DNA of 64,000 nt from Diplonema papillatum (Eukaryota; Euglenozoa; Diplonemea; Diplonemida; Diplonemidae), in assembly GCA_030068145.1 (NCBI GenBank), contig JAPJBO010000080.1, positions 371,958 through 435,957 on the forward strand. The letters are read 5' to 3'. A program made the position numbers and the translations under genes. Positions 10,546 to 62,205 of this stretch are shown here, piece by piece. The first letter of the stretch is position 1. Each line of letters opens with the position of its first letter. Under the pieces are notes generated by a model. That model ran no database searches, was not told the origin of the DNA, and saw nothing but the letters and a program-made list of their open reading frames with translations.

Positions 10546-13500
10546 ATGGTTGCGCAGTGGCTGTTCGCAGCGAGCCTCGCCGCGGCGGCGAGTGGATTCG
10601 GCCTCACGACGAGCGAAAACTACTACACCGTCGACACCGGCACGGACTTGGTGTTCCAGGTGCGCCGCACCGACTTGGGAGACACCTCAACGTCAATCGG
10701 CGGTATCAACTCGATACTGTGGAAGGGGGAAGAGTACATGGAGACCCCAGGCCGCGACAGCCACATTAACTCCGGGTTCGACTGGCTGTACTTGGACACC
10801 ACGGAAGTGTCCGTGGATGCTGAGACCATTGGCGACGACATCATCAAGATCACCGTCGTCGGCGGGCAGCTTACGCACTACTACATCGTCAAGAAAGGCG
10901 AGTCGAAGATCTACATGGGTACCCACTGGTCGCTCATGAGCACCGTCAAGACTGGGGTATCGCCTTCCGTCTTCACCCCCCGCACTTAGGGACCCCTCAG
11001 GCCCAGTTTCTTTGTTTCGATCTTCTACTCTTCAGGATGGGGGACACATATTTCCGTAAAAAAGCCAGAAAACAACCCGAGCTGGTAATCAGACGCTGGA
11101 CCTCCCAGAGCAAATGCACGTCGAAATACGGTCCATGTTTGCTGCTGTGAAGAGATGCTGTTACGAAAACCTTTCCCCCCGCACTTAGGGACCCCTCAGG
11201 CCCAGTTTCTTTGTTTCGATCTTCTACTCTTCAGGATGGGGGACACATATTTCCGTAAAAAAGCCAGAAAACAACCCAGCCGGTAATCAAACGCTGGACC
11301 TCCCAGAGCAAATGCACGTCGAAATACGGTCCATGTTTGCTGCTGTGAAGAGATGTTGTTACGAAAACCTTTCCCCCCGCACTTAGGGACCCCTCAGGCC
11401 CAGTTTCCTCGGTGGCTTGATCCTCTACTCTTCAGGATGGGGGACACATATTTCCGTAAAAAAGCCAGAACCCGAGCTGGTGTTCAGACGCTGGACCTCC
11501 CAGAGCACAGGCACGTCGAAATAGGATTCATGTTTGCTGCTGTGAAGAGATGCTGTTACGAAAACCTTTCCCCCCGCCCTTTGGGACGCCTCAGGACTCA
11601 GTTTCTTCAGTTTCCTGATCCTTAACCCGTTACGGACGTGGGACACATATTTACGTCGAAAAAGCCATAACCCGTTTGGGTTAGAATGCAAAGAATCTGT
11701 GGCGATAATCTGCATCGCCGACGCCATGACCCGAGCTGGTGTTCGGGGCGCTGGGCTTCCCAGAGCAAAGGCACGTCAAAAAGGATCCATGTTTGCTGTT
11801 GTGAAGAGATGTGTTGAGAAACCTTTCCTAAGCTTAACCCTTCACGGACGGGGGGACATATTTATGCCGAAAAAGCCAGAACCCGAGCTGGATTTAGGAC
11901 GCTGGGCCTCCTAGAGCAAAGGCACGTCAAAAAGGATCCATGTTTGCTGCTGTGAAGAGATGTATTACAGCCCTTTGGATGGAAGGTGATCGTCTTGGTG
12001 GGCGGGTTGATACGCCCAAACCATTCCATTCATCCCGTTCGGAAGTTCGTTAGTTGTTAGGTGGAATTGGCTTCACACTTTCCCTTTTGATGTCATGCGT
12101 GTTGTGTGCCTCAGCATTTGGTGAAAATCTGACCAACCAAGCAAAGGACAAGGAGAGTTCGTGACAATTCCTTGCTCTAAGAGAACCCATTCACTAAAAC
12201 CCCGGAATTTCAAGCGAACTTTAACTCTAAAAACAACCCCCCCGCAGATCCGATACTTGTTCAGACTCAACGCGTACAAGGTGGGGGACGGCCCGATCGA
12301 GGGAGACGTGCGAGACCCGAGGAACGAGTCGGTTCAGTTGCCGTTCATCGAGGCGAGCGACGTGTTCGGCGTCCACGACGGCACCACCCGCTCGAAGCAC
12401 TACACCAACGACCGGATGATGGACTGGAAGTACATGGGCTCGAAGGGCGACAACGTCGGGATGTGGGTAGTGCGGGCAACCCACGAGGGCGGCTGCGGCG
12501 GACCGTTCTTCCGGTCGACGCAGATCCAGATCCGTCCGGACACGTGCGAGATCACGTACATCCTCAACTACAACCACGCGAACATGGAGGACTTCAGGGT
12601 CGGCAGCCTCTACCAGTACACCTACGTCGTCAACGACGGAGAAGCTCCGGACACAGACATCGACTACACTTTCTACAAGGACCTCAACCTCGTCGGCTTC
12701 GTCGGCGCGGAAGGCAGAGGTGCCGTCTCGTGCCCCTCAGTTGAACCCCGAGCCGCCGACAGAGACTACGTCGCACACATCCGCAACGAGCACGCTCAGT
12801 ACTGGGCCTACGTAAACGCCGCCACGGGTGGGTTCGACATCGAAGGTGTTGTTCCGGGGGAGTACGAGTTGATCGTGTACCGTGTGGAGTTCGAAGTGTA
12901 CAAGACGCAGAGGATCGTCGTCGCCGCCGGTACGACGACAACCCTGGAGGCGATCTCGATCCCGGTCGACCCGAACGACAGGGAGAACATTTGGCGCATC
13001 GGCGAGTGGGACGGGACGCCGCAAGAGCTGCGCAACGGGCTCAACGTGACGAACATGCACCCCAGCGACGTTCGATTGGAGAGCTGGGAACCGGACACGT
13101 ACGTCATCGGCGTCGACACCCCGGCTAAGTTCCCGTGCTACATGTGGAAGGCCATCAACAACTACAGATACATCCAGTTCAAGCTCACGCCAGACCAGGT
13201 GACCCAGAGGCTGGTCGTCCGCATCGGGACCACGACCGCGTACAACAGCGCTAGGCCGACGGTCATCGCCAACACGAAGCAAATGCCTTCGTTGGAGGTC
13301 GGACCGCACCCGGCGACTCGCTCGTTGACCACGGGATCCTACAGGGGGCTCAATGCGATGTACGAGTACGAAATTCCGGCGTCGGCTTGGAACCCAGCCG
13401 ACGAGGACCAAACGGTCATCATCGTGCTGACGGGGGGCAACAGCAACGCGGGGTTCCTCAGCCCGGGGATGAGCATTGATGCCATCGACCTAGTGTACTA

Positions 13501-13771
13501 CGTCGAGCCGACTGCGGCGCCGGCGACGTACGTGCCGACGGCCGCTCCAGCCACGCCTGTCCCGAAGACGTCTGCACCTGCCACCAAGGCGCCGAGCACC
13601 TTGTCTCCGGAGACCGAAGCGCCGGTAGTCGAGGCGACGCTCGCCCCGGCCGCGGCCGCGACGCCCGAACCGGTGACGGCGTCGCCCAGCACCGACGCGG
13701 CGGCGCCCGCCGCCGCCGCCTTCCTCCAAGCAGCGCTGCTCGTCGTCGCAGCGGTCGCCCTCGCGTGGTGA
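10546..13771 (+). CDS. PL4 gene 1: rhamnogalacturonan lyase-like, two exons (10546-10956, 12248-13771)
   Basis: Predicted 644-residue secreted polysaccharide lyase family 4 protein. PL4 enzymes cleave the rhamnogalacturonan I backbone of pectin by beta-elimination. Exon 1 starts at ATG 10546 with a clear signal peptide and begins the N-terminal beta-sandwich. The intron runs from GTATCG to CCCGCAG and the exons join in phase 0. Lys187 (in GTTRSKHY) and His247 (in NYNHANMED) are 60 residues apart, the same spacing as the catalytic Lys150 and His210 known for Aspergillus aculeatus RGL4. A middle beta domain (YWAYVNAATGGFDIEGV) and the C-terminal family signature (WRIGEWDG) follow. The tail is a Pro/Ala/Thr-rich stalk and a hydrophobic end (LLVVAAVALAW), suggesting GPI or membrane anchoring at the cell surface. 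Stop is TGA. Family call is firm; exact substrate is not shown. Confidence 0.9.
10957..12247 (+). other. Intron of PL4 gene 1, filled by about five diverged ~198-bp repeats
   Basis: The repeats begin almost at the donor site (about 10976) and run to about 11960. Starts are near 10977, 11176, 11375 and 11572, with a more diverged copy after 11800. Each carries GGGGGACACATATTTCCG and CATGTTTGCTGCTGTGAAGAG. The last 280 bases are unique and hold the acceptor-side motif CGAACTTTAACTCTAAAAA shortly before exon 2. Confidence 0.85.
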
Positions 13772-20440: not shown

Positions 20441-21165
20441 GGATGAACCGAGAGCTGACTTAAGGTGTCCGAGTGATCGCTCATCAGATCCCACAAAGGG
20501 TGTCGGTTCATCTTGACTGCAGGACAACCGAGAGCAGACTTAAGGTGTCCGAGTGATCGCTCATCAGATCCCACAAAGGGTGTCGGTTCATCTTGACTGC
20601 AGGACAACCGAGAGCTGACTTAAGGTGTCCGAGTGATCGCTCATCAGATCCCACAAAGGGTGTCGGTTCATCTTGACTGCAGGACAACCGAGAGCTGACT
20701 TAAGGTGTCCGAGTGATCGCTCATCAGATCCCACAAAGGGTGTCGGTTCATCTTGACTGCAGGACAACCGAGAGCTGACTTAAGGTGTCCGAGTGATCGC
20801 TCATCAGATCCCACAAAGGGTGTCGGTTCATCTTGACTGCAGGACAACCGAGAGCTGACTTAAGGTGTCCGAGTGATCGCTCATCAGATCCCACAAAGGG
20901 TGTCGGTTCATCTTGACTGCAGGACAACCGAGAGCTGACTTAAGGTGTCCGAGTGATCGCTCATCAGATCCCACAAAGGGTGTCGGTTCATCTTGACTGC
21001 AGGACAACCGAGAGCTGACTTAAGGTGTCCGAGTGATCGCTCATCAGATCCCACAAAGGGTGTCGGTTCATCTTGACTGCAGGACAACCGAGAGCAGACT
21101 TAAGGTGTCCGAGTGATCGCTCATCAGATCCCACAAAGGGTGTCGGTTCATCTTGACAGCAGGAC
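20441..21165 (+). repeat. 80-bp tandem repeat, 9 copies
   Basis: Units start at 20441, 20521, 20601 and so on every 80 bp to 21081, and differ at only a few bases (GAGCTGAC or GAGCAGAC). Each carries AGTGATCGCTCATCAGATCC. The array is about 640 bp upstream of the gene 2 start codon. There is no coding sense. Confidence 0.97.
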
Positions 21166-21609
21166 GGTGGCCATGGAAGTCGGCATCCGATAATGAGTGT
21201 GTATCAACTCACCCGCCGAATGCACCGGTCCTGAAAATGGATGTTGCTCAAGCGATCCCATAGCTGGCCGCGTACTGGTATCACAAAGCCAGGCGTGCGC
21301 AGGAGTGCATGGTCCACGCCGCGAAGTCGTTGGCGTGAGCCTCGATGGAGCGTGGATGAGTGCAGATCTTGGTTGTAGTAGCGAATATTCAATGGAGAAC
21401 GTTGAAGGCCGAAGTGGAGAATTCCGTGTCAACAGCAACGACAGGACACGGGGCAGTCGGTCCAAAGGCAAGGTGTAATTGCTCTCGTCTCAAAGCTGCC
21501 ACTGACGAGCTTGCTCGGACCTCCTTGCTGTTGGCTCTTTGCTCTGCAAAGGGAGCGCTTGACTACAGGCCCCTAGACTCAAGTAAGTAAGGGGTCTGTG
21601 ACTATCCAG

Positions 21610-27800: not shown

Positions 27801-30800
27801 GTTTTTCAAGCGGCTTCCACTCTGCGCTGCGTTGTTCTTCAAGTCGATGATCAATTGCGCAGAGGTTGATTCTGCTTCTTGGCTGTCAGCTTTGCGACGT
27901 CGACAGGGCGCACGGGCCCTCTTCCGGAGGAGTCACGGACAGTCTCTGGGCAGGGCGCAACGCCCTCTTCCGGAGGAGTCACGGAGACAACCTCTGGGAA
28001 GGGCGCAAGGCCCTCTTCCGGAGAAGCCACATGGGCAGTCTCTGGGACAGGGCGCACGGCCCTCTTCCGGAGGAGTCACGGAGACAACCTCTGGGAAGGG
28101 CGCAAGGCCCTCTTCCGGAGAAGCCACATGGACAGTCTCTGGGACAGGGCGCACGGCCCTCTTCCGGAGGAGTCACGGAGACAACCTCTGGGAAGGGCGC
28201 AAGGCCCTCTTCCGGAGAAGCCACATGGACAGTCTCTGGGAAGGGCGCACGGCCCTCTTCCGGAGAAGCCACGGGCAGTCTCTGGGACAGGGCGCACGGC
28301 CCTCTTCCGGAGGAGTCACGGAGACAACCTCTGGGAAGGGCGCAAGGCCCTCTTCCGGAGAAGCCACATGGACAGTCTCTGGGAAGGGCGCACGGCCCTC
28401 TTCCGGAGAAGCCACATGGGCAGTCTCTGGGACAGGGCGCACGGCCCTCTTCCGGAGGAGTCACGGAGACAACCTCTGGGAAGGGCGCAAGGCCCTCTTC
28501 CGGAGAAGCCACATGGACAGTCTCTGGGAAGGGCGCACGGCCCTCTTCCGGAGGAGTCACGGAGACAGCCTCTGGGAAGGGCGCAAGGCCCTCTTCCGGA
28601 GAAGCCACATGGACAGTCTCTGGGACAGGGCGCACGGCCCTCTTCCGGAGGAGTCACGGAGACAGCCTCTGGGAAGGGCGCACGGCCCTCTTCCGGAGAA
28701 GCCACATGGACAGTCTCTGGGACAGGGCGCACGGCCCTCTTCCGGAGGAGTCACGGGGACAGCCTCTGGGAAGGGCGCAAGGCCCTCTTCCAGAGAAGTC
28801 ACATGGACAGTCTCTGGGACAGGGCGCACGGCCCTCTCACTGATTTTCCGAGGGAATCTACGAGGCTTGACGAATCTACATACAGGGGGTCGGTTGAAAG
28901 AAACCCGCTACAGCAATGCACGGCAATGCCGGACTGCATTGTCCAACTGCAATGCCCAACACTGCGGACAGCCGATAGATATTCTTCCGTCTCTGGGACA
29001 GGGCGCACGGCCCTCTTCCGCCGCGCCCGTACTCGCTTTTCGGTTCAAGTCAGTTTCGGGAAGCGACAGTCACGAGATACCAAACAAAATCGAAGGAAGG
29101 TGCATGGTAGATCTCGCTCCTGCCGGCGCTTGCGCGAAATTTGCTGAATTAAACTTTTTTCCCGTACAGAAACAAAAACATCGAAATTCCACCCATTTCG
29201 CACCGCAGTTCCGGTACGATGCCGTTCGGTGCTCGTTCAACATTCGGTTCGCCCCGGACAAGCTGACGAACGTGCCGAAGCACTCCGATATCCGCGGCTT
29301 CAACGGCACGATGGGCACGAACCAAGCAGACATCTACACGCTCGAGAACGGCGAAACGCGGTCGACGTGGTTCGCGACGAAGCGGTCGCGGGACTGGAAG
29401 GAATTCGGGGCGACCAACGAGGCGGAGACTCTTGGGGTGTACTTCGTGCGCGGGAAGCACGACGGCGACACGGGAGGCCCGTTCTACAAGGCGCCGCAGC
29501 AGCTGACGAGAGACGAGTACCACGAGATGACGTTCTACTTGTCGACCGCCGCCGGCATGTCGGACGTCGCCGGCGGCTGGCCCATGGACGTCCTGCGGAC
29601 GCACAACGTGTTCACGTACGCATTGAGCTTCACCTCCGGCTCGATTCCCGAAATTGAGGAGGAAACCCTGCATTTCCTCGAGGACTTCGGCATCCGTGGC
29701 TACGTCCCCGAGGCGGAGAGGGGCCAAGTGAAGCTTACCGAATTCGAAATGCAGATGCAGGACGTCCGCTACACCACCTGGATGTACAACGACCAGGCGA
29801 ACTACTTCGGCTCGAACCAGAACAACAAAGGGTACGTCCGCATCCCGAGCGTACTGCCGGGGGAATACACGGTGATCATCTACAAGTTGGAACTCGGAGT
29901 CTACAGGTCTGCCAGCCCCCTCCACTCTGGTTCTTTCAGTTTCTTTGTGTGTGGCGTAAGATCGCCGATCTTCGAAGAGTAAACATACCCGACGAATACG
30001 TAGCACTACCGCACGGTTTATGCCCCCGTCGCTATTCCGAAAACATCGTACCTTCACCCTCGCCTGCAGTCCCTCAAGGTTTCATACTTCACTTTGAAAG
30101 TCGTACGCTCCTCTTTTTCCCCTTTTTTCTTTGCATCTCCTTTCTAAACACTATCTTCTCGAAGAAGACGTGAATGCTAGCATCAAACATGCATGAGGGG
30201 CAGTGGTCCTGCCTAAACATTTTCAGCTAAGATTTTCCAGCACTTTAACATACATTGCATCCTGCAGAGTCTGGCAGAGTCTGACTGAGTCTCGCCAGAG
30301 TCCAGCCTGAGTCTGGGCGACTCAGGCAGACTCAGGCTGGACTCAGGCAAACTCGGGCCGGGCAGTGTATATGAGTGTTCGGGTCACTTCAGTGGAGCAG
30401 TGACGGCCAACAATCACAATCACAATCACAATTGCACACAATCACAAGGATTAAAACCCAGCCACCTGGAAGGGACTAGTGATCTGGTGCTTGGGTACCA
30501 CCTCAAGAACCACATCACAAAGCTGTCGAGCACGACGCACCCATGTAAAGCATACAGCGTTAGTATAGGTAATTACCTATAACCTTTCGCGATTTTTGCG
30601 GTTCAGCGTTACGTATAGGTAATTGCCTGTAGGTGGAAACTGGACCAGCTTTAGGGTCCAATTTCAGGTGTTCAAGTTTCGTTTGCATCACTCAAATTTT
30701 GTCTGGTTAGGAGCATTTTGATTAAAGTGTGTGGGGTCCCAATTTGTTGTTTGATACACCGTGCACATCTGCAAGCTTGCTGCCAGAACCTCAGCGACCA

Positions 30801-50948: not shown

Positions 50949-50992
50949 ATTGCACACAATCACAAGGATTGTAAATTTGTTGCATTAGTGTG
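50949..50992 (+). repeat. 44-bp target-site duplication of LINE A, left copy
   Basis: Identical to 54180-54223 over 44 bases (starts ATTGCACACAATCACAAGGA, ends TTGCATTAGTGTG). It spans the host/LINE B junction, which shows that LINE A entered after LINE B. Confidence 0.95.
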
Positions 50993-53900
50993 TGGGCCTT
51001 TGAAACGTGGATGATGCCTCTCGCGCTGCTCCCCTTGAGGTTCCTGGCTCATGCCAAAGCGCCGCCGCCCGGGTTAAGGGGTTGCGGCATCAGGCGTGGG
51101 CCAGGGCCAGGGAGACTGTTCGGAGGGGTCACCACCCACCGTTCGCGGGCTTCGTTACTTCACTGCCCCCGGCTCTCCCCGGCCTTCGTCATCCCGGGGG
51201 AGGGTTCCACGGCCATCTCCCCCCGCGTGGGGAATGGACTGGTGCTGTGCCGCGGGTCCTTCCGTGCGTCCTCGCGACGTCGCCGCTGTCGATGTCACTG
51301 CCGCTGTTGCTGCCGCTGCAGCCGCTGTCGGGCGGTTGGTTGACGATCCCGGTCTGCACCCCGCCCGTTGCGCGTCGGCTTTCTTCTTCTCGGCGTTCGC
51401 TAGGACGTCCCAAAGGTGGCGGCTGCCGCCGCCGCGTGCGCGACGGTGCGTCGCCCGGTCGTGTCTTGCCCGTGCCTTCCACTTCTCGCCGCTGTGTTGC
51501 CACCCCCGTGGGTAATGGGCCTGGGGTCGGAAGCTGCCGGTCAGGACACCCGCCTTCTCCCAGTGGCCGCCCTGGTCGCCCCGTCCTTTGTTCGCCATCT
51601 TTTTGGGCACGTGCCGTACGGCGGCGACTTCGAACGCCCGCATCACCGCTTCGAAGGCCTCCCGGTTGTTGATCTGCGGCCGTTTGTTGAGGCCATGGAG
51701 GATGGGTCCCCCGAGGCTGGTGAGGTGGTTGACGCGCATCTCGAGGGCCGGGTGGACGGCTTTCACGCGCGCAATCTTGCCCAACCTGCTCAGCGCGGTC
51801 CTCATCGCCCACCCTTTCGCGGTCGCCGAGTCGCTGTAGGCCTGTGCCGCCTGTCGCTGTGCGGTGTCCATGGCGCGGTTCGACAGTTCGTCCGCATCCT
51901 TGTTGAGCTCGCGAGGAATGTGCACCGGCTCGATCGTCGTCCGTCGGTCGTGCAGCTTCGCCAACAGGTTCTGCGCCTGGTCGTAGTATCGCCGGAGTGT
52001 TTCGTTGCACCTCTTCGTGCCCTTTATCTGATCAATGACCAGTTCGCTGTCGCCCTTGACGACGATGGTGCGGGGTGTCGGCGGCACGGGGTCCCGCAGC
52101 AACCTCGCCAACACGCTGACGAACCCGACGTATTCCGCCACGTTGTTCGTCGCTCTCCCGGCAATGGGCTTCTCAACTTCCCACTGCTTGACGCCTTTGT
52201 CGTAGAAGACCGCCCCGGCTCCCGCGACCGCGCCGTTGGTCCCGTTCCCCCGACTGCCGCCGTCGAAGAACGCCGCCGTCTCCTCTCCCGGCAGCGTGTC
52301 CGCCACGGTCCAGCGCTCCTTCGGCTGCCGCTGCGCGATGTTCTCCTGCCTCCGCTGTGTGCCGGCCGGCGTGAGGGTCAGGCCGCTGTGCAGCTCAAAA
52401 TCGACAGCGAGCTCGAAATACGAGATGGAGGCCTGCTTGCCGGTTTCGGACCACCGCTTCGTCGAGCACCATTCTGCCAGCGCCAGGAGCATCTCGTGGG
52501 TGTCCTTCCATGCGTTGCGGTCCGGCCGCGCACCGTCGACGTTGATGGTCTGGCTGGCCGTCGGCCGTTGCGGCTCCCACCCCCACGGATATGTCGACAC
52601 CTTGAGCTCCTTGCGCCGGCAGTCCTGCTCGAGGATGCCGTCGGCCCGCTGCCTCCCGAGCAGGATCTCGACGCACATCAGCTGCATCCCGGCCGCCAGC
52701 TCCCTGCATTCGTCGAAGTCGAGTCCCATCGCGTCCTTGGGCATGACGCCGCATAGAGCCATGCACGGTTTCATCTCGGGCCGCCGAGCGAGCACATTCG
52801 GATACGCGCCGCGCACGTCGCTCCACTTGACGCAGTCCCACCACATGTGTTGTTCGTCCTCCGGGACACCCGCGTCGCAGAATCTGCAGGTTGCTTGCTC
52901 CCATCGCTTGCCGGTGTGTACCGCGTTGGCAATGACAGCTCTGACCAGGCCCTGCTGGTAGCCGGTGATGGCGCCCTTCTCCAGCAGGTCTCGCGTGGCA
53001 CCCCCGTCGATGCCGTCCTCGATGCCGAGGAGGGATGCCCTCGTCTTGACCACGTCCTTGTAGCGCATCGTCCGCCCGGCCTCCCGCAGCTCGTGCTGGA
53101 AGTTGTGCCGAGCGGTCTGCGCCCGCTGCCTCTCCTCTTTCGTCAGCGGCTCGACGTTCTGCACCACCGTCCATTCGCGCCGCCGGCCCGTTCCTTCCTG
53201 CAGGGTGTCGAACCTGGGCCACGTCCATCCGATGTCTGCGATCGCTCGCTCGAGCAGGAACACTGGCCCCTCCTTGCTTCGCCCCGGTGCCTCTGGAGCG
53301 CCGGGGGGGCGGTCCCGCCTTGCTTGTCGAGCTGCTCGGATGGCAACAACCAGCGGCGCCAAGTGCGACTGCTTCACCATCTGCTGCGAAAATGTGTTTA
53401 CCCGCCGATGAATCGCGGCGACACGCGGGTCCAATCTGTGCCCCCGACACAGCGTGTTCAGCACGACGGCATCGCACCTCCTGTTGCCGCCGGTCCACAG
53501 CCCCGCCAGGGTAGCAACTCGCAGGCCTTCCATGTACGTCCCCGCCGGTTGCCACACCGAGACGCCGTACAACGCCTTCGCTGTGGCCGACGCAGCCACG
53601 TAACCTTCCTTCTGGTCCATCGGGATCGGCAGGCTTCTCGCCCTTCTCGCGATGTTCTTCGCGGCCTCGAGCCGGGTTCGAATCCGCCTGCTGGGGGGCG
53701 GCGCACCCTTCCCGACCGTAAACATCGCCCCCAGAACGTCGAAGCTTGTCTTCCGCAGTACCTTGTTGCCCTGCACTGTGAGCGTTCCCGGAGCGTCCGC
53801 GTTCGTGGCGTAAAAGAACGACTTCCCAGCGTTGACGCCCCCATCGGTCGCGTTGGCGAAGTCCGTCGTGACTTCAGCCACGGCCTTGAGCCCCCTGAGG

Positions 53901-54179
53901 GACTCCGACATCGCATGAATGTCGTCCAGGTACGCCATCGCCTGGGCCGGTGTTGTCAACGCCCCCACGGCCCGCACCCAGACCGCGATGAGCGCGTTTA
54001 GGAACAGCACGCTGAGGGGGCATCCTTGTAAGATGCCATTCGTCGCAACGAAAGGCTCCCCGACTGCCCGCGCCGTCTTGAAGTGGCGCTGCATGCTTCC
54101 GTACACCGCCTTCATCGCCCTCAGTACCCCCGGGTCCAGCCCCATCACCTCCATCAAACGGAACATGATCTCGTGCGGC
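50993..54179 (-). mobile_element. LINE A: 5'-truncated non-LTR retrotransposon
   Basis: A 3187-bp minus-strand element bounded by a 44-bp duplication. Its 3' end lies at 50993 and has no poly-A (TTTCAAAGGCCCA-type end). Its 5' end stops abruptly inside the reverse transcriptase, as expected of incomplete target-primed reverse transcription. The single long frame is undamaged, so the insertion is young. A fragment of the same 3' UTR lies at 1585-1685. Confidence 0.95.
51155..54179 (-). CDS. LINE A ORF2, 5'-truncated: RT (partial), zinc knuckle, RNase H
   Basis: About 1008 codons without a stop, lacking the endonuclease and the first half of RT. It opens in RT block 4-5 (FRLMEVMGLDPGVLRAMKAV, NGILQGCPLSV), followed by the catalytic AYLDD at about 53921-53940, a variant of YADD. 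A CxxC...H...C module (CRFCDAG...QHMWWDC, about 52830-52890) follows, then a shared block FELAVDFELHSG. An RNase H domain at about 52280-51860 keeps the four acidic positions: D in FFDGGSRGNG, E in NNVAEY, D in VKGDSEL and D in NKDADEL. The end is basic and Ala-rich. As a truncated copy it has no start of its own. Confidence 0.92.
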
Positions 54180-54223
54180 ATTGCACACAATCACAAGGAT
54201 TGTAAATTTGTTGCATTAGTGTG
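54180..54223 (+). repeat. 44-bp target-site duplication of LINE A, right copy
   Basis: Partner of 50949-50992. Its last 22 bases (54202-54223) are the 3' end of LINE B. Confidence 0.95.
54192..54201 (+). repeat. 10-bp target-site duplication of LINE B, left copy
   Basis: CACAAGGATT, also at 61884-61893 and, as a second copy made by LINE A, at 50961-50970. The empty site in gene 2 has it once. Confidence 0.9.
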
Positions 54224-54273
54224 ATTGTCAGGCCTTCGACTACCCTGAGCAACGCACTATGCACACTCCGTGT

Positions 54274-57200
54274 CTACGTCACAGCAGATGGAACGCGTCT
54301 GTTACGTCGCCGCGGAGGCGGCCTACGAGTGGGTGTCATTGTGGCCTCCCGGCCGGAGCCATCGTTGGATGACCCTTCGCTCGTTTCTTCGCGTTTGCGT
54401 CGGTTCGCGCGTCGGATGGACGCAGCCGGGGGCTGCGCATTGGGCGGCGTTCGTCGGGCGGGGGTGTTGGCCCGGAGTTGCGGCGTTGGCAGTTGAGTGC
54501 GTCGGCGCCGCCGCGCTGGGGGGGTGCGTGGGACGGAAGGGTCCTCCGCAGCACGCCGCCGCAGCGGCGCAGCGCGATCGATCGTTGGTGAGTCTCCCTG
54601 GCCGGAGCCGGAGGATTCCTCGCTCGTCTCCCCGCGTTTGCGTCGGAGCCCGCGTCGGGGCGCTGCCGGTGCCGGTTGAGGTCCCGCCGGAGGTGCAGGT
54701 GCCTCGTTCTCGTCGTCGGCGTCGTCCGGCCGGTCTCCCGCCCGGTGGTGGCCACTCCGGCAGCACACGGAGGCATTGGCGCAGCCGCCGCAACGCGTCA
54801 GGTGGTGCGCTCCGCAGCATTGCGTGAGGACACCGTCACCGGGCTCGTGGTGGTCCCGGCAACACTGCTCCGGCGTGCGCTGTGAGCTCGAGGCGCACAA
54901 CGGACACTTCTTCTTCGCGCACTTGTCGCAGACCTGAAAACGCCCTCGCGTCATGGCCTGCGACGCGGGCACCAGCACTGGGTGCGCAGAGCGTGTCAGC
55001 ACCGGCCTCCGCACCTCCCACTGCTGAGCGCGCTCAGCGCGTAGAGCCGAGTCGTACTGCGGGAACACGTCCCTACCCCACACTTGGCTTGTCAGCCCAC
55101 CGACGGGCAGGGCACGCGTGGCACAGGCCTCCAGGACAGCCGCCGTTTCCGCGCCCGCCGCGAAGACGGGACGTACTTGCAGCCCGCCAATCACCCGCGG
55201 CACACCGAGCGTGTGGAGGCTCTTCACCCTCTCCAGTCTCGCCGTCGGCAGCGGCGAGGGCAGCTTCAGAGTCTCGCATAGGCGGCACAGCACTGCGAGC
55301 ATCGCTCCTAGCCGCTGACCCCGTTCGGCCACCGATACGGGGCCAGCGGGGCGCTGAACCTTCGGCCTCTTGGGGCAGTGCTTGACATCCATCCCTGTGA
55401 ACAGCTCGAAGTCCAGAGCGAGCTCGATATTGATGCAGCGCCGCCAACCAGCCCTTCAGAGCGCGCATCATCGGGGCGCCAAAGTTCCATTTCCGCGGCG
55501 CATCCGGTAGGTCGTTGTACCGAAATCTGTGGGCGGTCGCCTGTGTGGAGGCGGCGAGCACCCAGGCGTGGGTCACCGGCGCGGACTTCCAGCGCGCAAG
55601 GCTCGCCTCAGTCCTGGCTGCAAGGATCGTTCCCATCATGCGATGCAGGGCCGTGGCATCAATATCCAGTCCCACGGTGATGACACCGTGCACCCGGGTG
55701 CAGGAGGGCCAGCGCGAGCGGTCAGCCCGTATGAGGGCCGCGAAGCAGTCCATTCTCCGGATGTTGCCGTACGCGGGGCATGCCCACCACAGGTGCTCCG
55801 CGGTGTCGGGGACCCGCAGCTCGCAGTCGGGGCAGTCACGGCCACGGGCCCGGGGAGCGCTTTCGCTGCTCGAGGTCACCTCGTCGAAAGCATCAGCTGA
55901 TGCGGTCCGATCGTCTTCGCCGCCGGAGGAGGGCCCGGAGGACCCTTCAGCAGAGGAGGAGGAGGCGGCGGGGGACGCGGCCGAACCGTCACCGCCGTCG
56001 CCGGAGTCGCCCCGGCGGTCTCCGTTGCCGGCGCCGCGCCCCCAGCGCGTTGCGTAGTAGACGCCGCCGGCCAGGATGGTCGTGAGGGCCTTCCGCAGCG
56101 CAGCACTCGCCGTCGCTCGGCGGCGTTCCTCGTTGGTGCGAACGTAGTCTACACCGTGCTGCACCCCGTCAAAGGACGGGCGCTCCGCAGCAAGCTGCGT
56201 CCAGGCGGACTGTCGCAGCTGCCCCCGCAACACATGGTGCCGCTCGGCCCGTCGCATGTCCAGCAGGACCCGCCCTTGCACTTTCATGGTGCCGAGGTCA
56301 AACCCGTCGTATTCGGCCCCGACCGGGGGGAGCCCGTCGGTGATCGCGATACCGACGGGACCCAAACCCCGTCCGAGCATCCCGCCCCGTTCGCCATACA
56401 GCCGGCAGATGCGCTTCATGCGTTCGCGCACGTTCGGCAACCGCTCGCACGAGTCCAGCAGTGAGCATAGCACCCAGTAAGGGCGCGCCAGCACGGGGTC
56501 GACCCGGTGGCCCTTCGCCAGGACGGTCAGCACCGCGGAAACGCTCCGGGAGGTGCCCCTGTTTACCGGCCCAAAGACCCCTCGCGCAATCCTCGTGCGG
56601 AGACTCTTCAGGCCCGCTTTCGTGAAGGGTGTGTACTGACACCCAGACAGTGCGCTGCCCAGCGTGCTGGAGCTCGCGATCTCGCACCGCTCGTCGAAGG
56701 GGAGTGGCGACAGACCTAACGCGTCCATCAGCCCACTCTGGGCCTCCAGCCGTGCGTCGTTGGTGCGGTCGCACCTCTTGGTCGAGGTGTTCAACCTGCC
56801 ACTCAGCACCTTCGTGGACGACACGGTGGGGAAGACCTCCTTGCCGTCGCCCTCGCCAATGTGCAGCGTGGACCGGTAGGGGCGCTGCATGCGTTGCTGC
56901 GTCTTGCCTTCGAGGATCCCGAGCGCTACCGTCTTCTTCACGTTCAGGCGCATGCCCGTAACGTCGCAGAACCGGCTCACAACGTCGACCGCCTTCTGCA
57001 CAGCGGGCTCGTTGGACGCGTGCAGTGTGGCGTCGTCGGCGTACGACTCCGACGCCACCGGCACCGCCCTCAGCATCACTGACAACAGCGCGTTGATCAG
57101 AATGACCGAGATCGGGCAGCCCTGCAGGATGCCGTTGGTGACCTCAAAGTAGGCCCCAACGCCTAGCGGCAGCTTGAACCGCCGCTTCAGCCCGCGGTAC

Positions 57201-59734
57201 ATCGCCTGCAACGGCTTGTGGATGCGGGCGTCCAGCCCCATCTCCTCCGCAAGTCGCAGAACAATCCCTTGCGGCACCCTGTCGAAGCACTTGGCAAAGT
57301 CCAAGGCCAGGACGACGAGCGACTTCGTCTCGTCGAGCAGCGTCTCCTCGACGAGCGTCGCCATCTCCATGAGGGCGTCGTCGCAGCGGTGTCCCGTCCG
57401 GAAGCCATGCTGGGTGGGGAGCGCCCACTCCTCCTGCCACGCCATGATGTCACGCAGCCTGCGGCACGCCCAAAGGCGGTACACGCAGCTGGTGACCGTG
57501 ATGGGCCGCATGTTGGTGGGCGATGGATCCTCGCTCTTTGGAATGAGCGACACCAACGCCGTCAGCAGCCCTTCTGGCCACCGCCCCTCCTTTTCAACCA
57601 GGTTGAAGAAGCTGGCGAAGGCGTCCATCAGTGGGACGGGCAGGGCTTTCAGCTCGTCCATGCGCCACCCGTCCACACCGCACGCCGAGGACTTCTTCTT
57701 CCTCTCTCGAAGGATGGTTCGCAGCTCCTCACCAGTGATGTCGGTGACTTGCATCGGCCGGTGTTGGACGTGCTCCCCAAAGGCCTTGGCGAAGTCGTCG
57801 TAGCTGGGCTCGGGGGTCTCCGGCGAGTACAGCCTCAGGATGGGGCCCCAAGCTTGCTGGAGGACATCATCCATCTCGTCGAGGTTCGCCGTAAGGCGGC
57901 CGCCATCAGCTCTGAGAGTGTCCGCCGAGGGCTTGGTGTCACCCCTCAGCATGGAAACCAGCGATCTGCGGTCCGTGGCGTACCTCTCTCGGAGCCCCTG
58001 GCGGGCTTGCCGTTCGCGGCTCTGCCTGGCCGCCGCATTGTGCTGGGCGCTCCGGGCTCTGACTCGATGCAGCATAGCCCGGGCGGCCTCGGCAGGCGGA
58101 GGTTCAGCCGGCGGCGGAGGTTCCCCTTCACACGTCAGCACCGGGATGCACCGCGCCCAACAAGCGCGCAGATCCTGCGGCACGACGAACGGCCCGGACA
58201 CCTCCAGGCGGCTTCGTGCGTGCACGTAGTGCATCAGCCGTGTGATGGCCTTGCCGTATTTCAGCTCGGCCTCGCACGTAACGCCCTTCCCCGGGCAGCT
58301 CCGGGCAACCGCCCGGACCCGCCTCGGCTCCCTCGCGAGGCCACGGCCTACATACGGGCGTGCCTTTGCCGCCGGCACATCGCACCTGTCGAGGAGATGC
58401 TGCTCGCATGCCGCCGAAAGCTCACCCCAAGCCAGCTCTACGTCCCCGTCTGCCAGTGCCCCCTCGAACGCCTCCAGCGAAGGCACAGGGGCGTCGGGCT
58501 TGCTCACCGGAGGGAGCGCACGTGGCACGGAGTAACGCAGCGTCATTTGGTTGAACGCCGGTAGCGACAGCTGCACGCAGACGCAGCGGTGGCTACCGAC
58601 GCTACCAACATTGAAGGTGCTGCACCCGGCAAATGCAAGGGCCGCAGACCTGTTCATCAGCGCATAGTCGATGCGCGTCTCCGCCTTCGACGTCGTATAA
58701 GTCGGAGGAGGCCGCACCGCGCCGTCGTGCTGCGCCTGCAGTTGCGCGGCATCGACCCAGCCATTGCCGAGCGCGCTCCGCAGCGCCGGAGACCTGTCCG
58801 TGTCCGTGTTCAGGTCCCCGAGGACGACAGCCGGGGCCCCTCCCACCATTGCCTGCGCGTCGAAGAGGACCGCCTGGAGCAGGCGTTCCCTGGCTGCCAT
58901 CGTATTCGGGCCGCAGGGGGCGTACACCACGAAGCAGTGTAGGAAAGTCTTTCCTGCTCCTAGCGCCACCATCATGTGCAGGACCCGTTCGGATGATCCC
59001 GCGATGGCGCCGTTGTGCACCGCATGTACGACCCCCGGCCGCCGGTTGATGGCGCCAATACCTCCGCCCATCGTTCCGAAGTTGGGGTTACCACCCCTGG
59101 GAGGTCGCGGGGGCCCCCACAGCGATCCCCATCTTCCAGAGTCGGCGGGGCATGGTTCCGCCAGGTACCTCGACATCTCGCCCTGCTGCTTCTTCGACAT
59201 CGCCGTCTCCAGGATGCCGATGACGTCCGCAGGGATGAGGCTACGCACCTCATCAACGTGGTTCGGGAAGGCGGTGGTGTTGATCACCGCAAGAGAGATC
59301 GTCGGAGCGGGCCCCGGGTTGGGGTGCACATCCCCGCACCTTCTCAGACGGAGCCTGGCGGTACCGCTCGCGGTACGGGCACTGTGGCGCGAAGGCAGCA
59401 AGAGGAAGATCAACAAGCGCAAAGTGCGACGACGTCGGGGGCCCTTGGCCTCGCGGCGAAATCCGTCACCGTCAGTGCGGCGGCGAATCGCCAGGCGAGG
59501 AGCCGGACAGAGGGGCGGCAGGGGGCGAGCCCGCCGTCGTGGAGAGCAGGGGGCGTGCCCATGGTGCCGGCACCGGTCCCCTTGGGCGGCCAGGAACAGT
59601 GGGAACGAGGCCCCGCTGAGGGTCGCGAGGCAGACGGCGCGGGCCGGCCCTGGGTTGGGGTGGACGTCCCCGCACCTCAGAAGGCGCAGATTGGCGGCAT
59701 CCCCGCCGGCACTGGCGTCGTGGTGCGATGGCAG
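54274..59734 (-). CDS. LINE B ORF2: 2A - linker - 2A - AP endonuclease - RT - zinc knuckle - Cys-rich end
   Basis: The frame opens directly after the ORF1 TGA (59735-59737) and has no ATG before the endonuclease. The first 2A-like motif RCGDVHPNPGP ends at 59645. After a linker of about 100 residues comes an identical motif ending at 59309. AP endonuclease motifs follow: IN...LETAM, VVLGDLNTD, RIDYALMN and GSHRC. RT runs at about 57760-56900 with LDFAKCFD, NGILQGCP and SYADDAT (about 57028-57048). CPDC...EHLWWAC lies at about 55779-55850. Near 55430 the alignment with LINE A (INIELALDFELFTG) jumps to the +1 frame, which runs to the stop at 54274 and encodes a Cys/His-rich cluster (CDKCAKKKCPLC, CCGAHH, CGGC) and a basic tail. 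There is no RNase H. Full length would be about 1820 residues. Confidence 0.85.
59309..59341 (-). other. 2A-like ribosome-skipping motif 2
   Basis: Codon-by-codon reading gives RCGDVHPNPGP. The core fits the known 2A pattern D-(V/I)-x-x-N-P-G-P, in which the ribosome skips the last Gly-Pro bond. Skipping here would release a protein starting with Pro directly before the endonuclease. Confidence 0.8.
59645..59677 (-). other. 2A-like ribosome-skipping motif 1
   Basis: Again RCGDVHPNPGP, preceded by LRLL. It lies 20 codons after the ORF1 TGA in the same frame, so it is reachable only by readthrough or non-AUG initiation. Confidence 0.8.
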
Positions 59735-59737
59735 TCA
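59735..59737 (-). promoter_or_regulatory. In-frame TGA between ORF1 and ORF2, candidate readthrough site
   Basis: ORF1 ends ...LCSKC and then TGA CTG. The +4 base C and the CT following it resemble the leaky UGA-CU context (UGA CUA is the best known). ORF1 and ORF2 are in the same frame (61666 to 59422 is a multiple of 3), and no stop occurs from 59734 to the 2A motifs. Confidence 0.55.
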
Positions 59738-61736
59738 ACACTTGCTGCACAGTTGGCATGCGAAGATGTCGCAGCCTTTGCACGCCCTCCGCACCTGCTT
59801 CGGCAGCTTCTCCTCCTTGCAGATGGCGCAAGTGAAGCCGTTTTTCGGTTTGCTCACGCGGCTCGTGTCGAAGGAGTGACGGTGGCCGCCCTGCTCCTGC
59901 CCGCCCGCGGTCGCATCGATGGCCGGTCCCCCCGTCATCTCTTCGTCCTCCCCAGACACGCGCAGGCGCTGGCGGGGCGGGGAGAGGGCGTTCACCACTC
60001 CTTCAACGACCCGCTGGAGGATACCGGGCTCCACGGTCGCCGCCTTGGCGGGCTCCTCAGGCTCTCGCCCCTTCCGCTTCGTGCCTTGTGTAGCCGGGGG
60101 CGAAGTCGCTGGGCCTGCGCCCGCTTCAGCCGCCGGCAGTTTCACGCGGCGCGTCTTGGCAGGCCCCCCGCCGGCCAGCTTCTTGCGGGCCTCCCGCGGC
60201 AGCTCGCTCCTGTCGTAGTCGTTCACGACGAGCGGCGGCGCGTTCCCCCGCTCCAGCACCCGGAACGGCGGCGGCTCAATCGTCGCCACCACGCACGTCC
60301 TGCTACCGCCGCGGACGAACGCTGAGACGGGCTCCACAGCCCAACCGGCCCGTCTCAGGTCCGCCACGACGTCTGCCTCGTGCTCACGCGGCTTGGCCCC
60401 GGTCACCATGAACCGAGGCGCCAGAACGAGCGGCGCCGCGGCGTGCTTCCCCGCCGCGGCGCGCACCTGTTCCAGCCCGCCGGCACCGCGCACACGCACG
60501 AGGAGGCGCTTCGTGCCGAGCACGAGCCCGCACCCGGCCCTGCCCGCCTTCCCCAGAATCGCCATGGCGGCCTCTCGCGAGACGTCCTCGCTGAGAGCTA
60601 CCACGGGCATCGCGTCGCGGGCGGCCTTTTCGATAGGCCGCCAGAACCCGCCGTCTCTGCCGGAGCCTTCGACGACGCCTTCCGCGTGGGCGCACGACAG
60701 GCGCACCAGAAGCTCGCGGCGGCCTCGCTGCGAGGTCAAGCCCCACATCGCGCCGGCCTCGAGCCGCGCCTTGGGGTACGCCGTCGTGACAGCGCGGCGG
60801 CAGAGACGTGTCATCGCCGCCAGCGGGTCACGTTCGACGCACTCCCAGACGCCGGGGGGCGCGTGTTTCCGGGCCACCACAAACGCGAGGACGGTGGTAG
60901 CCGCCACCCGGGGTTCGCCTCCGTCGGCGACCGCCTTCTCCGCCCGGGCCGTCACCCTGCCCAGCTGGCGTGCCTCGCCCTTCGTCCAGGCGTGCATCGC
61001 GCGCACTTGCCCGTCCTTCATCAGCACGTGCCGTAGCGTGCTTCCTTCGAACGCGTCGCGGCACAGCACCGCGAACCGCGCGGCCTTCTCCGAGCCTGCC
61101 AGCTGATCGGCGGCGTCGGCTGCCGCACCTACCGCATCGACGGCTGCGTCTGCGTTAGGGGCGACAACAACGCCCTCCTCCTTCCCTTCGATGTCGCCGC
61201 TTCCCAAGACTGGCACGTTCCAGTCCTCGGGGCTGACGTCGAAGACGGGGCGGCGCCTGGCGACCTCCACCCACGTCCCCTCCTGTCGCTGCTGCTGGCG
61301 CTGGGGCGTCGGTTGTTCCCCTTGCAGGCGGCTGCGGTTGCTGTTGTTGCTGTTGCTGTTGCTGTGCGGCGGCTTGTTGTTGTTGTTGTTGTTGTTGCGG
61401 CTGTTGTTGCCGTTGTCGCTGTCGTCGCTGCTGTTGCGGCTGTGGTTGTTGCTGTTGCTGTTGCTGTTGTGGTCGCTGCTGCTGTTGAGGTTGCTGCTGA
61501 TGCTGTTTCTGCGGCTGACGCTGCTGCTGCGCTTGCTGTTGTGGTTGCTGCTGCTGTTGCTGTTGTTGCTGTTGTTGCTGTCGTTGTTGCGCCGGCTCCC
61601 CGCTGTTCGCCTCGATCTGACGCCGGAGCAGCGTCGTGGCGACGTCGAGGATGCCGAAAACGGCATCCAGCTGGTCGCGGTTGGCGCGTTCCGCCATCCC
61701 GCGCGCTTCCTGGATCAGGGCGTTAATCCTGTCCAT
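59735..61736 (-). CDS. LINE B ORF1: polyQ N terminus, basic middle, C-terminal zinc cluster
   Basis: The first ATG (61736) opens MDRINALIQEARGMAERANR, a helical start, followed by a long Gln-rich tract (about 61590-61330). In this frame the protein would end near 61155. The remaining protein-like sequence (EGTWVEVARRRPVFDV onward) is in the frame of ATG 61666, one base further on, which turns the same tract into Asn/Ser. A switch near 61290-61330 restores one ORF1 of about 665 residues. It has an Ala/Arg-rich middle, then a KR-rich stretch, and ends in CAICKEEKLP...CKGC...CQLCSKC, a cross-brace-like zinc site, before TGA. ORF1 proteins of LINEs bind the element RNA. This one shows no recognisable RRM. 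Confidence 0.8.
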
Positions 61737-61883
61737 TTTGACGGAGCTACGGGTAGCCCGCGTTCTCTTCGCGGATGGGTACCGCTGTTGTGTTATGTTG
61801 GGTGTTTGTCCTGGATGAATTCCGGGCGCACTTTACCGGCCGCGTGAGCAGCCAATAAAGTACAGAAACTGTAGCTTTTAAAT

Positions 61884-61893
61884 CGTTGGTGGG
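61884..61893 (+). repeat. 10-bp target-site duplication of LINE B, right copy
   Basis: CACAAGGATT followed by AAACCCAGCCACCTGG, which is continuous with 30466 onward in gene 2. Confidence 0.9.
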
Positions 61894-62205
61894 CACAAGG
61901 ATTAAACCCAGCCACCTGGAAGGGACTAGTGATCTGGCACCTCAAGAACCACATCACAAAACTGTTGAGCACGACACACACATGTAAAGCTTACAGCGTT
62001 AGGTATAGATAACTACCTATACTCAACGAACCGCGATTTTTGCGGTTCAGCGTTACGTATAGGTAATTGCATGTAGGTGGGCACTGGACCAGCTTTAGGG
62101 TCCAATTTCAGGTGTCAAGTTTCGTTTGCAACACTCAACTTTTGTCTGGTTAGGAGCATTTGATTTCAGTGTGTGGTCCCATTTTGTTGTCTGATACACC
62201 GTGCA
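61894..62205 (+). repeat. Intron 2 segment of gene 3 shared with gene 2 (30460-30890)
   Basis: Same order of phrases as in gene 2 (CCACCTGGAAGGGACTAGTG, GCGATTTTTGCGGTTCAGCG, GGACCAGCTTTAGGGTCCA). The copy here is slightly shorter before the 11-bp repeat. Confidence 0.9.

Follow-up and report, generated by a model that had tools for sequence, protein, structure and literature searches.

An In-Frame UGA Followed by CU between ORF1 and the 2A-Bearing ORF2 of Diplonema papillatum LINEs: A Probable Case of Readthrough and 2A Release

LINE B and Its ORF1/ORF2 Junction

The window analyzed here, a 64,000-nucleotide stretch of the Diplonema papillatum genome (contig JAPJBO010000080.1), contains a full-length long interspersed nuclear element (LINE) of 7.69 kb, designated LINE B (family F9), at positions 54202..61893 of the minus strand, on which all of its features are given below. 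Its two open reading frames (ORFs) are joined in one frame through a single UGA codon, and the same arrangement recurs in related elements of this genome. It appears probable that this UGA is read through in a minority of translation events and that the polymerase protein would then be released by 2A skipping.

The ends of the element are set by an empty paralogous copy of the target at 30443-30452 of the same window, together with a 10-bp target-site duplication, AATCCTTGTG, found at 61894..61903 on the 5′ side and at 54192..54201 on the 3′ side. ORF1 (59738..61736) starts at an ATG at 61736-61734 and comprises a polyglutamine (polyQ) region, a conserved body, and a cysteine-rich C-terminal end (59738..59836) that is zinc-finger-like by eye and homologous in six family variants. 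The ORF2 frame (55073..59734) opens with a first 2A-like module directly after the UGA (59645..59734), recognized by motif and alignment, which is followed by a spacer (59399..59644) and a second 2A-like module (59309..59398). Further downstream, an APE-type endonuclease domain (PF03372, 58622..59269) and a reverse transcriptase domain (PF00078, 56921..57544) were matched by Pfam in this order within one ORF, which identifies LINE B as an APE-type LINE; Pfam gave no match to RNase H in ORF2. Solved protein chains matching ORF2 include L1 ORF2p, and several 5′-truncated sister copies (L018, L020, and L024-L026) begin inside the element, as for a LINE.

The junction reads ...CQLCSKC-UGA-LPSHHDA, with the same frame on both sides. 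As an earlier note made from the sequence of this region had stated, though with no strand named, ORF1 ends in TGA at 59735..59737 (read as 59737-59735 on the minus strand) in the context TGA CTG, the CUG occupying 59734-59732. The same note had counted some 1400 open codons after the TGA; the frame is indeed open, and the count is 1553 in the window copy. It had also found no ATG before the peptide ETAMSKK, which agrees with the frame reading: the first in-frame methionine is the 179th codon (59198..59200), within ETAMSKK at the start of the endonuclease. The four ATGs that lie between the UGA and this codon (59700, 59562, 59331, and 59253) are all out of frame. An AUG overlapping the ORF1 stop, as in SART1, is absent from the LINE B junction, whose sequence is TGTTGACTG.

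The window copy is damaged in two places. The single frame described earlier holds at the junction and fails at the ORF1 start, since the Kozak-like ORF1 ATG is out of the TGA frame owing to a one-base break near the end of the polyQ run, and this switch of frame within the polyQ region is also visible in codon use. The break looks private to the window copy, because a sister copy (L064 on C172, the only copy read base by base there) has an ORF1 that continues unbroken across the polyQ region and because the frame counted across the TGA stays open for 2518-2627 codons at six more F9 places (C1103, C1612, C146, C730, and two on C1169), compared with 2213 in the window; ORF1 is thus probably continuous at these six places as well. 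A programmed frameshift in the polyQ region was considered and set aside, given the single frame of L064. The second lesion lies in ORF2, which is without 23 nt present in the sister loci covering that place. Among the 22 loci in which the junction is present and the stop is reached (window included), 14 have an ORF2 of 1827 codons ending in TAG, and the other eight are shorter.

Exactly at the 3′ junction of LINE B lies another element, LINE A (50949-54223), which is 5′-truncated and bears RNase H. It is located between 44-bp direct repeats (54223-54180 and 50992-50949), which may represent either a target duplication of 44 bp or a common 3′ tail at a site that was used again.

Conservation of the UGA in Copies and Related Lineages

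A search of the genome with LINE B gave 31 matches, of which 30 were taken as F9 loci, the window copy included. TGA CTG is present in all 23 loci that hold the junction, the remaining seven being without it, and the aligned pieces are mostly 98-100% identical to the window copy. Such near-identity indicates that the F9 copies are young, and they therefore say little about selection by themselves.

More divergent elements were reached with a 2A pattern, which had 889 matches in the genome compared with one for the reversed pattern; 30 loci were taken from about the first 100 matches, three pairs of them representing one copy each. In 17 loci, a cysteine-rich ORF1 end is followed by TGA CTN in the frame of the 2A. 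Six others are open across 500 upstream codons, and seven have other stops, mostly in copies that look truncated or decayed. The six open loci are L034, L036, L037, L049, L053, and L058; L063 is likewise open over the approximately 100 codons read, and some of these loci contain further degenerate motifs such as GDVQRHPGP.

The 17 loci fall into six variants, namely F6, F1, F1b, F2, F8, and F8r. The codon after the UGA is CTG in F9, F6, F1, and F2, CTA in F1b, and CTC in F8 and F8r; the last two are not independent, because one ORF1 is common to both. For a further type, F10, only the ORF1 side was matched, in 17 places at 42-43% identity with the F8 query, the alignments ending at residue 78, three residues before the site. 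A 2A lies downstream in the same frame by coordinates; a UGA was expected there and was then read in 51 bases of one copy (C41, the only one read) as GTC TGA CTA CGA. UGA followed by CU is thus found in all eight variants read (F9, F6, F1, F1b, F2, F8, F8r, and F10). CTN makes up 8.1% of the codons in these frames, so that five CTN lineages would be expected by chance with a probability of about 4e-6 if they were independent, a figure that serves only as a guide because the lineages are related.

The ORF1 ends are homologous in all 15 pairs of six variants (the score was reached in at most one of 200 shuffles), and the UGA lies 0-12 codons from the end of these alignments. As judged from their sequences, six ORF1 lineages including LINE B share one layout, with an ORF1 zinc finger, UGA, CUN, a same-frame ORF2, and a 2A. 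The shared frame is kept although the distance from the UGA to the last 2A ranges between 106 and 379 codons in the variants measured. No early in-frame ATG is common to the families among these variants, and F9 has none before the endonuclease.

The site was also followed with translated queries of 161 residues centered on the UGA (site at residue 81), an alignment being regarded as spanning if it ran from residue 76 or earlier to residue 86 or later. The counts were made by eye, twice, and refer to alignments rather than sites; a TGA may sit off the exact site, and the queries overlap in the places that they matched. A TGA was present in 32 of 32 spanning alignments with the F8 query and, among the matches listed, in 106 of 108 with F6, 124 of 133 with F1b, and 111 of 115 with F2. 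All 26 places assigned to F9 by 46-50% identity to the F6 query hold TGA among the matches listed.

The exceptions are few. With F6, no stop was found in C669:39063 and C449:32831, one alignment has an extra TAA, and two have two TGAs; another 35 alignments, which start at residues 77-80 and contain no stop, were left out by the spanning rule; most of these adjoin an alignment of the same copy that has the TGA, and they were interpreted as the second 2A module, where a sense codon occupies this position. Among the nine F1b exceptions, two (C34:552292 and C2366:1738) show TAA alone, although TGA occurs in alignments that overlap them in a different frame; five (C35, C817, C7, C21, and C2455) are chimeras of the F8r type, in which the F8 query reveals a TGA; and two (C2:403766 and C2630) have no stop. 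With F2, C10, C817:19702, and C1288:2442 lack a stop, the last two overlapping or adjoining TGA alignments, and C495 has only TAG. A piece of the F1b junction that is 88% identical and includes the TGA occurs nine times on C1063 and C1128 among the matches listed, perhaps as a segmental or satellite-like array. No relatives were detected in viral contigs or in bacterial and archaeal genomes with the queries used.

2A Modules and Selection around the UGA

The motif DVHPNPGP occurs twice in frame in LINE B, at 59668-59646 and 59332-59310, and was not obtained in any of 100 shuffles. The two F9 modules, of which the first reads LPS...RCGDVHPNPGP, form a tandem duplication with a distance of 336 nt (112 codons) that begins right after the UGA; the position corresponding to the UGA before module 2 is occupied by TTG in F9 and by Trp (TGG) in F6. 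Over the 16-codon cores of the two F9 2As, nine codons differ and eight of these differences are synonymous (P 2.4e-4, for a core picked after the alignment had been seen). The spacer shows little conservation. F6 elements (L055, L040, L050, and other loci) also carry tandem 2As, 84 codons apart compared with 112 in F9, with a similarly divergent spacer, which would fit an old duplication in which nothing but the 2As matters.

Between F6 and F9, the 31 codons right after the UGA are 77% identical at the protein level, with a ratio of nonsynonymous to synonymous difference (pN/pS) of 0.22 and saturated synonymous change. This combination indicates that the stretch straight after the UGA is translated in the two families. 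Other parts of the same comparison are less constrained: 71% identity and a pN/pS of 0.31 for the 21 codons before the motif, 36% and 0.67 for the spacer, 65% and 0.47 for the second module, 55% and 0.50 for the endonuclease side, and 53% and 0.51 for the ORF1 body (474 codons). The last 33 codons of ORF1 are only 27% identical, with a pN/pS of 1.11, and their cysteines are kept. Among F1, F1b, and F2, pN/pS is 0.44-0.52 in the first 40 codons (25-37 codons compared), 0.71-0.93 in codons 40-100, and 0.22-0.34 in codons 100-180, which lead into an AlkB-like domain. F8 against F1 gave 0.78 in the first 40 codons (22 compared) and 0.93 in codons 40-100, where the segments may be non-homologous. 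A fold of part of ORF1 predicted without relatives had a mean predicted local distance difference test (pLDDT) score of 38.6 and was unusable as a model.

AlkB-Like Domain and Chimeric Elements

In F1 (L057), a 2OG-Fe(II) oxygenase domain (PF13532, E 2.6e-12, residues 158-255) is located between the UGA and the 2A, and F1b and F2 (L048 and L039) align with this AlkB-like stretch. The first in-frame ATG after the UGA in F1b is codon 220 (counted from 0), inside the AlkB-like domain by alignment. Among the open-licence papers listed, judged from titles and abstract openings, there was no AlkB-bearing LINE, the one AlkB case being an orchid Ty3/gypsy element (PMC9289625, in excerpt).

Some elements are chimeric. 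In L044 (with L060), the ORF1 end is identical to F8 over 120 residues and ORF2 is of the F1/F1b type, a pattern of ORF1/ORF2 swapping near the UGA. Another swap is hinted at by F2 and F1, whose ORF1s are 28% identical and whose ORF2 ends are 88% identical.

Other Features of the Window

A fragment of eukaryotic large-subunit rRNA (RF02543) at 21100-21262 is the sole Rfam match in the window at gathering scores. A 29-bp tandem repeat array of 118 copies extends from 6615 to about 10400, with long open frames in its second half.

Probable UGA Readthrough Followed by 2A Release

The earlier note proposed that ORF1 is extended by UGA readthrough and that 2A skipping then frees the endonuclease-polymerase. 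This is the probable reading for a 2A-bearing LINE group with a single conserved UGA CUN within one frame. The sequences themselves show the conserved UGA, the shared frame, the lack of an ATG common to the families, the CU context, the selection after the UGA in F6/F9, and the 2A motifs, whereas decoding by readthrough, its rate, and 2A activity are inferred. Most ribosomes would stop at the UGA and yield ORF1p, while a minority would decode it as an amino acid and continue into the 2A module or modules. There, the Gly-Pro bond would be skipped, and ORF1p would be released with a short tail (or with the AlkB-like domain in F1/F1b/F2). The endonuclease-reverse transcriptase would then emerge as a separate protein without requiring its own start codon. 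The UGA would set the ratio of ORF1p to polymerase, and the 2A would separate the products. A low readthrough rate could suffice for a LINE polymerase. Extended to the whole LINE group, programmed UGA readthrough with 2A release seems rather likely, including the suggestion that in the AlkB lineages a minor ORF1-AlkB fusion could join the RNA particle and demethylate it.

Wider comparison bears on several points raised in the earlier note. The TGA is conserved in other copies, a sense codon at the site being rare, and the shared frame is kept in all variants read. An in-frame ATG before the endonuclease is lacking in F9 but not in every family, and purifying selection was seen after the UGA (F6/F9, and in the F9 2A cores). 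None of three contrary outcomes was found, namely that most related copies have a sense codon at the site, an ATG before the endonuclease, or a different frame relation.

Several observations weigh against this reading. In-frame ATGs follow the UGA in F6, F1, and F2 at codons 18, 16, and 31 (counted from 0). Fold z-scores for the sequence 3′ of the UGA gave no consistent RNA structure shared by the six families (F9 +0.91, F6 +1.26, F1 -0.55, F1b -2.07, F2 -2.41, and F8 -2.20). The selection after the UGA, strong in F6/F9, appears weaker in F1/F1b/F2 and was not seen between F8 and F1. The F9 and F6 motif DVHPNPGP has H where the canonical D[V/I]ExNPGP has E, F1/F1b/F2 having DIEQNPGP or DVEQNPGP, so that the skipping activity of DVHPNPGP is putative. 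A UGA with CU after it is known to be leaky, but the best human context is UGA CUA; in human cells, two UGA CUC contexts gave 0.26-0.31% compared with 1.55% for one UGA CUA (PMC4359377, and for the first two points also PMC4132726, both in excerpt). In the elements described here, CUG is the commonest and CUA was read only in F1b and F10. Finally, the independent evidence amounts to about six related lineages, because copies within a family are near-identical.

Alternative Explanations

The main rival to readthrough is that ribosomes terminate at the UGA and start again at an adjacent non-AUG codon, either independently of an AUG, as has been proposed for mammalian L1, or by SART1-like stop-start coupling; ORF2 would then start near LPS, with the 2A trimming its N-terminus. 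Restart has been described as coupled in SART1 and as unconventional in L1 (PMC5972666, in excerpt). In F9, F6, F1, and F2, the near-cognate start CUG follows the UGA, and conservation starts at the first codon after it. However, this codon is inconstant, being CTA in F1b and F10 and CTC in F8 and F8r, both of which are poor start codons, and the CUG of F9 is in a poor start context with U at -3 and C at +4. Restart would also have no need of the shared frame, which is nevertheless common to all variants read, and there is no stop-start AUG overlap. Overall, restart is considered unlikely.

It has also to be asked whether ORF2 is made from a separate shorter RNA, by an internal promoter or splicing, with the UGA never passed. 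The abstract of a study of the LTR element Tca2 of Candida offers a precedent, as the junction alone gave no UGA readthrough there and held a minor promoter (PMC2194720). In F9, however, such an RNA would still present the out-of-frame ATGs before the first in-frame one, and the first 2A, the best-conserved stretch compared between F6 and F9, would be pointless. Coding comes close to the UGA upstream (the cysteine pattern) and starts from it downstream, which leaves little room for an intron, and the junction is unspliced in all 23 loci that hold it. This origin of ORF2 appears improbable.

Even less probable is the decoding of the UGA by another fixed rule, whether selenocysteine, an altered code, or RNA editing to UGG. 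The Trp codon (TGG) of F6 before module 2, where module 1 has TGA, could be taken in its favor. On the other hand, a search for selenocysteine insertion sequence (SECIS) families gave no match, either in the window at gathering scores or, with E values of up to 5, in the element, and no other RNA family matched within the element. A sample of 5,327 codons downstream of the site, drawn from six families, contained 80 TGG and no further in-frame TGA. In agreement with the earlier note, UGA is a normal stop in this genome, as the gene at 12161-13771 (PL4) ends in TGA.

A chance nonsense mutation in a fused ORF1-ORF2 gene of the window copy, which might be thought of given its two other lesions and the fused look of other 2A LINEs (6 of 30 loci are open for 500 codons before the 2A), is refuted by the copies, since TGA is found in 23 of 23 F9 loci and in divergent families.

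Relation to Known Systems and Significance

2A sequences are reportedly found in APE-type LINEs such as L1Tc, Ingi, and members of CR1/L2/Rex1/Crack, in work said to be that of Heras in 2006 and Odon in 2013. These elements are described as having either a single fused ORF or an ORF2 that starts independently. The LINE B group resembles them in its APE endonuclease and reverse transcriptase, with a 2A-like sequence just before the endonuclease and a polymerase that would be released by StopGo. It differs in the in-frame UGA between ORF1 and the 2A, in the doubled 2A of F9/F6, and in the AlkB-like domain between the UGA and the 2A of F1/F1b/F2.

A second frame that continues the first across one stop, the stop setting the ratio, is also known from gammaretrovirus Gag-Pol, as in murine leukemia virus (PMC5009743, in excerpt). 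The stop is UAG there and UGA in the LINE B group, which is a LINE group with no shared stimulatory structure found and with a 2A in place of a protease. Human readthrough genes with UGA CUA, a context said to resemble that of alphaviruses (excerpts of PMC4132726 and PMC4359377), have in common with it UGA followed by CU; here, the third base of the codon is mostly G, and the product would be a long enzymatic one rather than a short tail. Tca2 likewise has a UGA between two retroelement ORFs (gag-UGA-pol), but it is a long terminal repeat (LTR) element, its junction alone gave no readthrough in yeast, and the abstract mentions no 2A (PMC2194720). SART1 and mammalian L1 are LINEs that need ORF2 expressed behind an ORF1 stop; stop-start AUG coupling or unconventional restart serves there (PMC5972666, in excerpt), whereas the LINE B group has the same frame and no near AUG. 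Among the open-licence papers listed, judged from titles and abstract openings, none described a LINE in which a stop codon separating ORF1 from ORF2 is read through.

How a two-cistron RNA yields a small amount of ORF2 protein in LINEs has long been an open question, for which restart, frameshifting, and single-ORF 2A are the known answers. The LINE B group, seen in six ORF1 lineages and in many near-identical and hence young copies, would add conserved stop readthrough with 2A release and would combine in one element two recoding events that are usually studied apart. If true, a non-LTR element would here follow a Gag-Pol logic like that of retroviruses, in which the stop controls dosage and the 2A takes the role of the protease.

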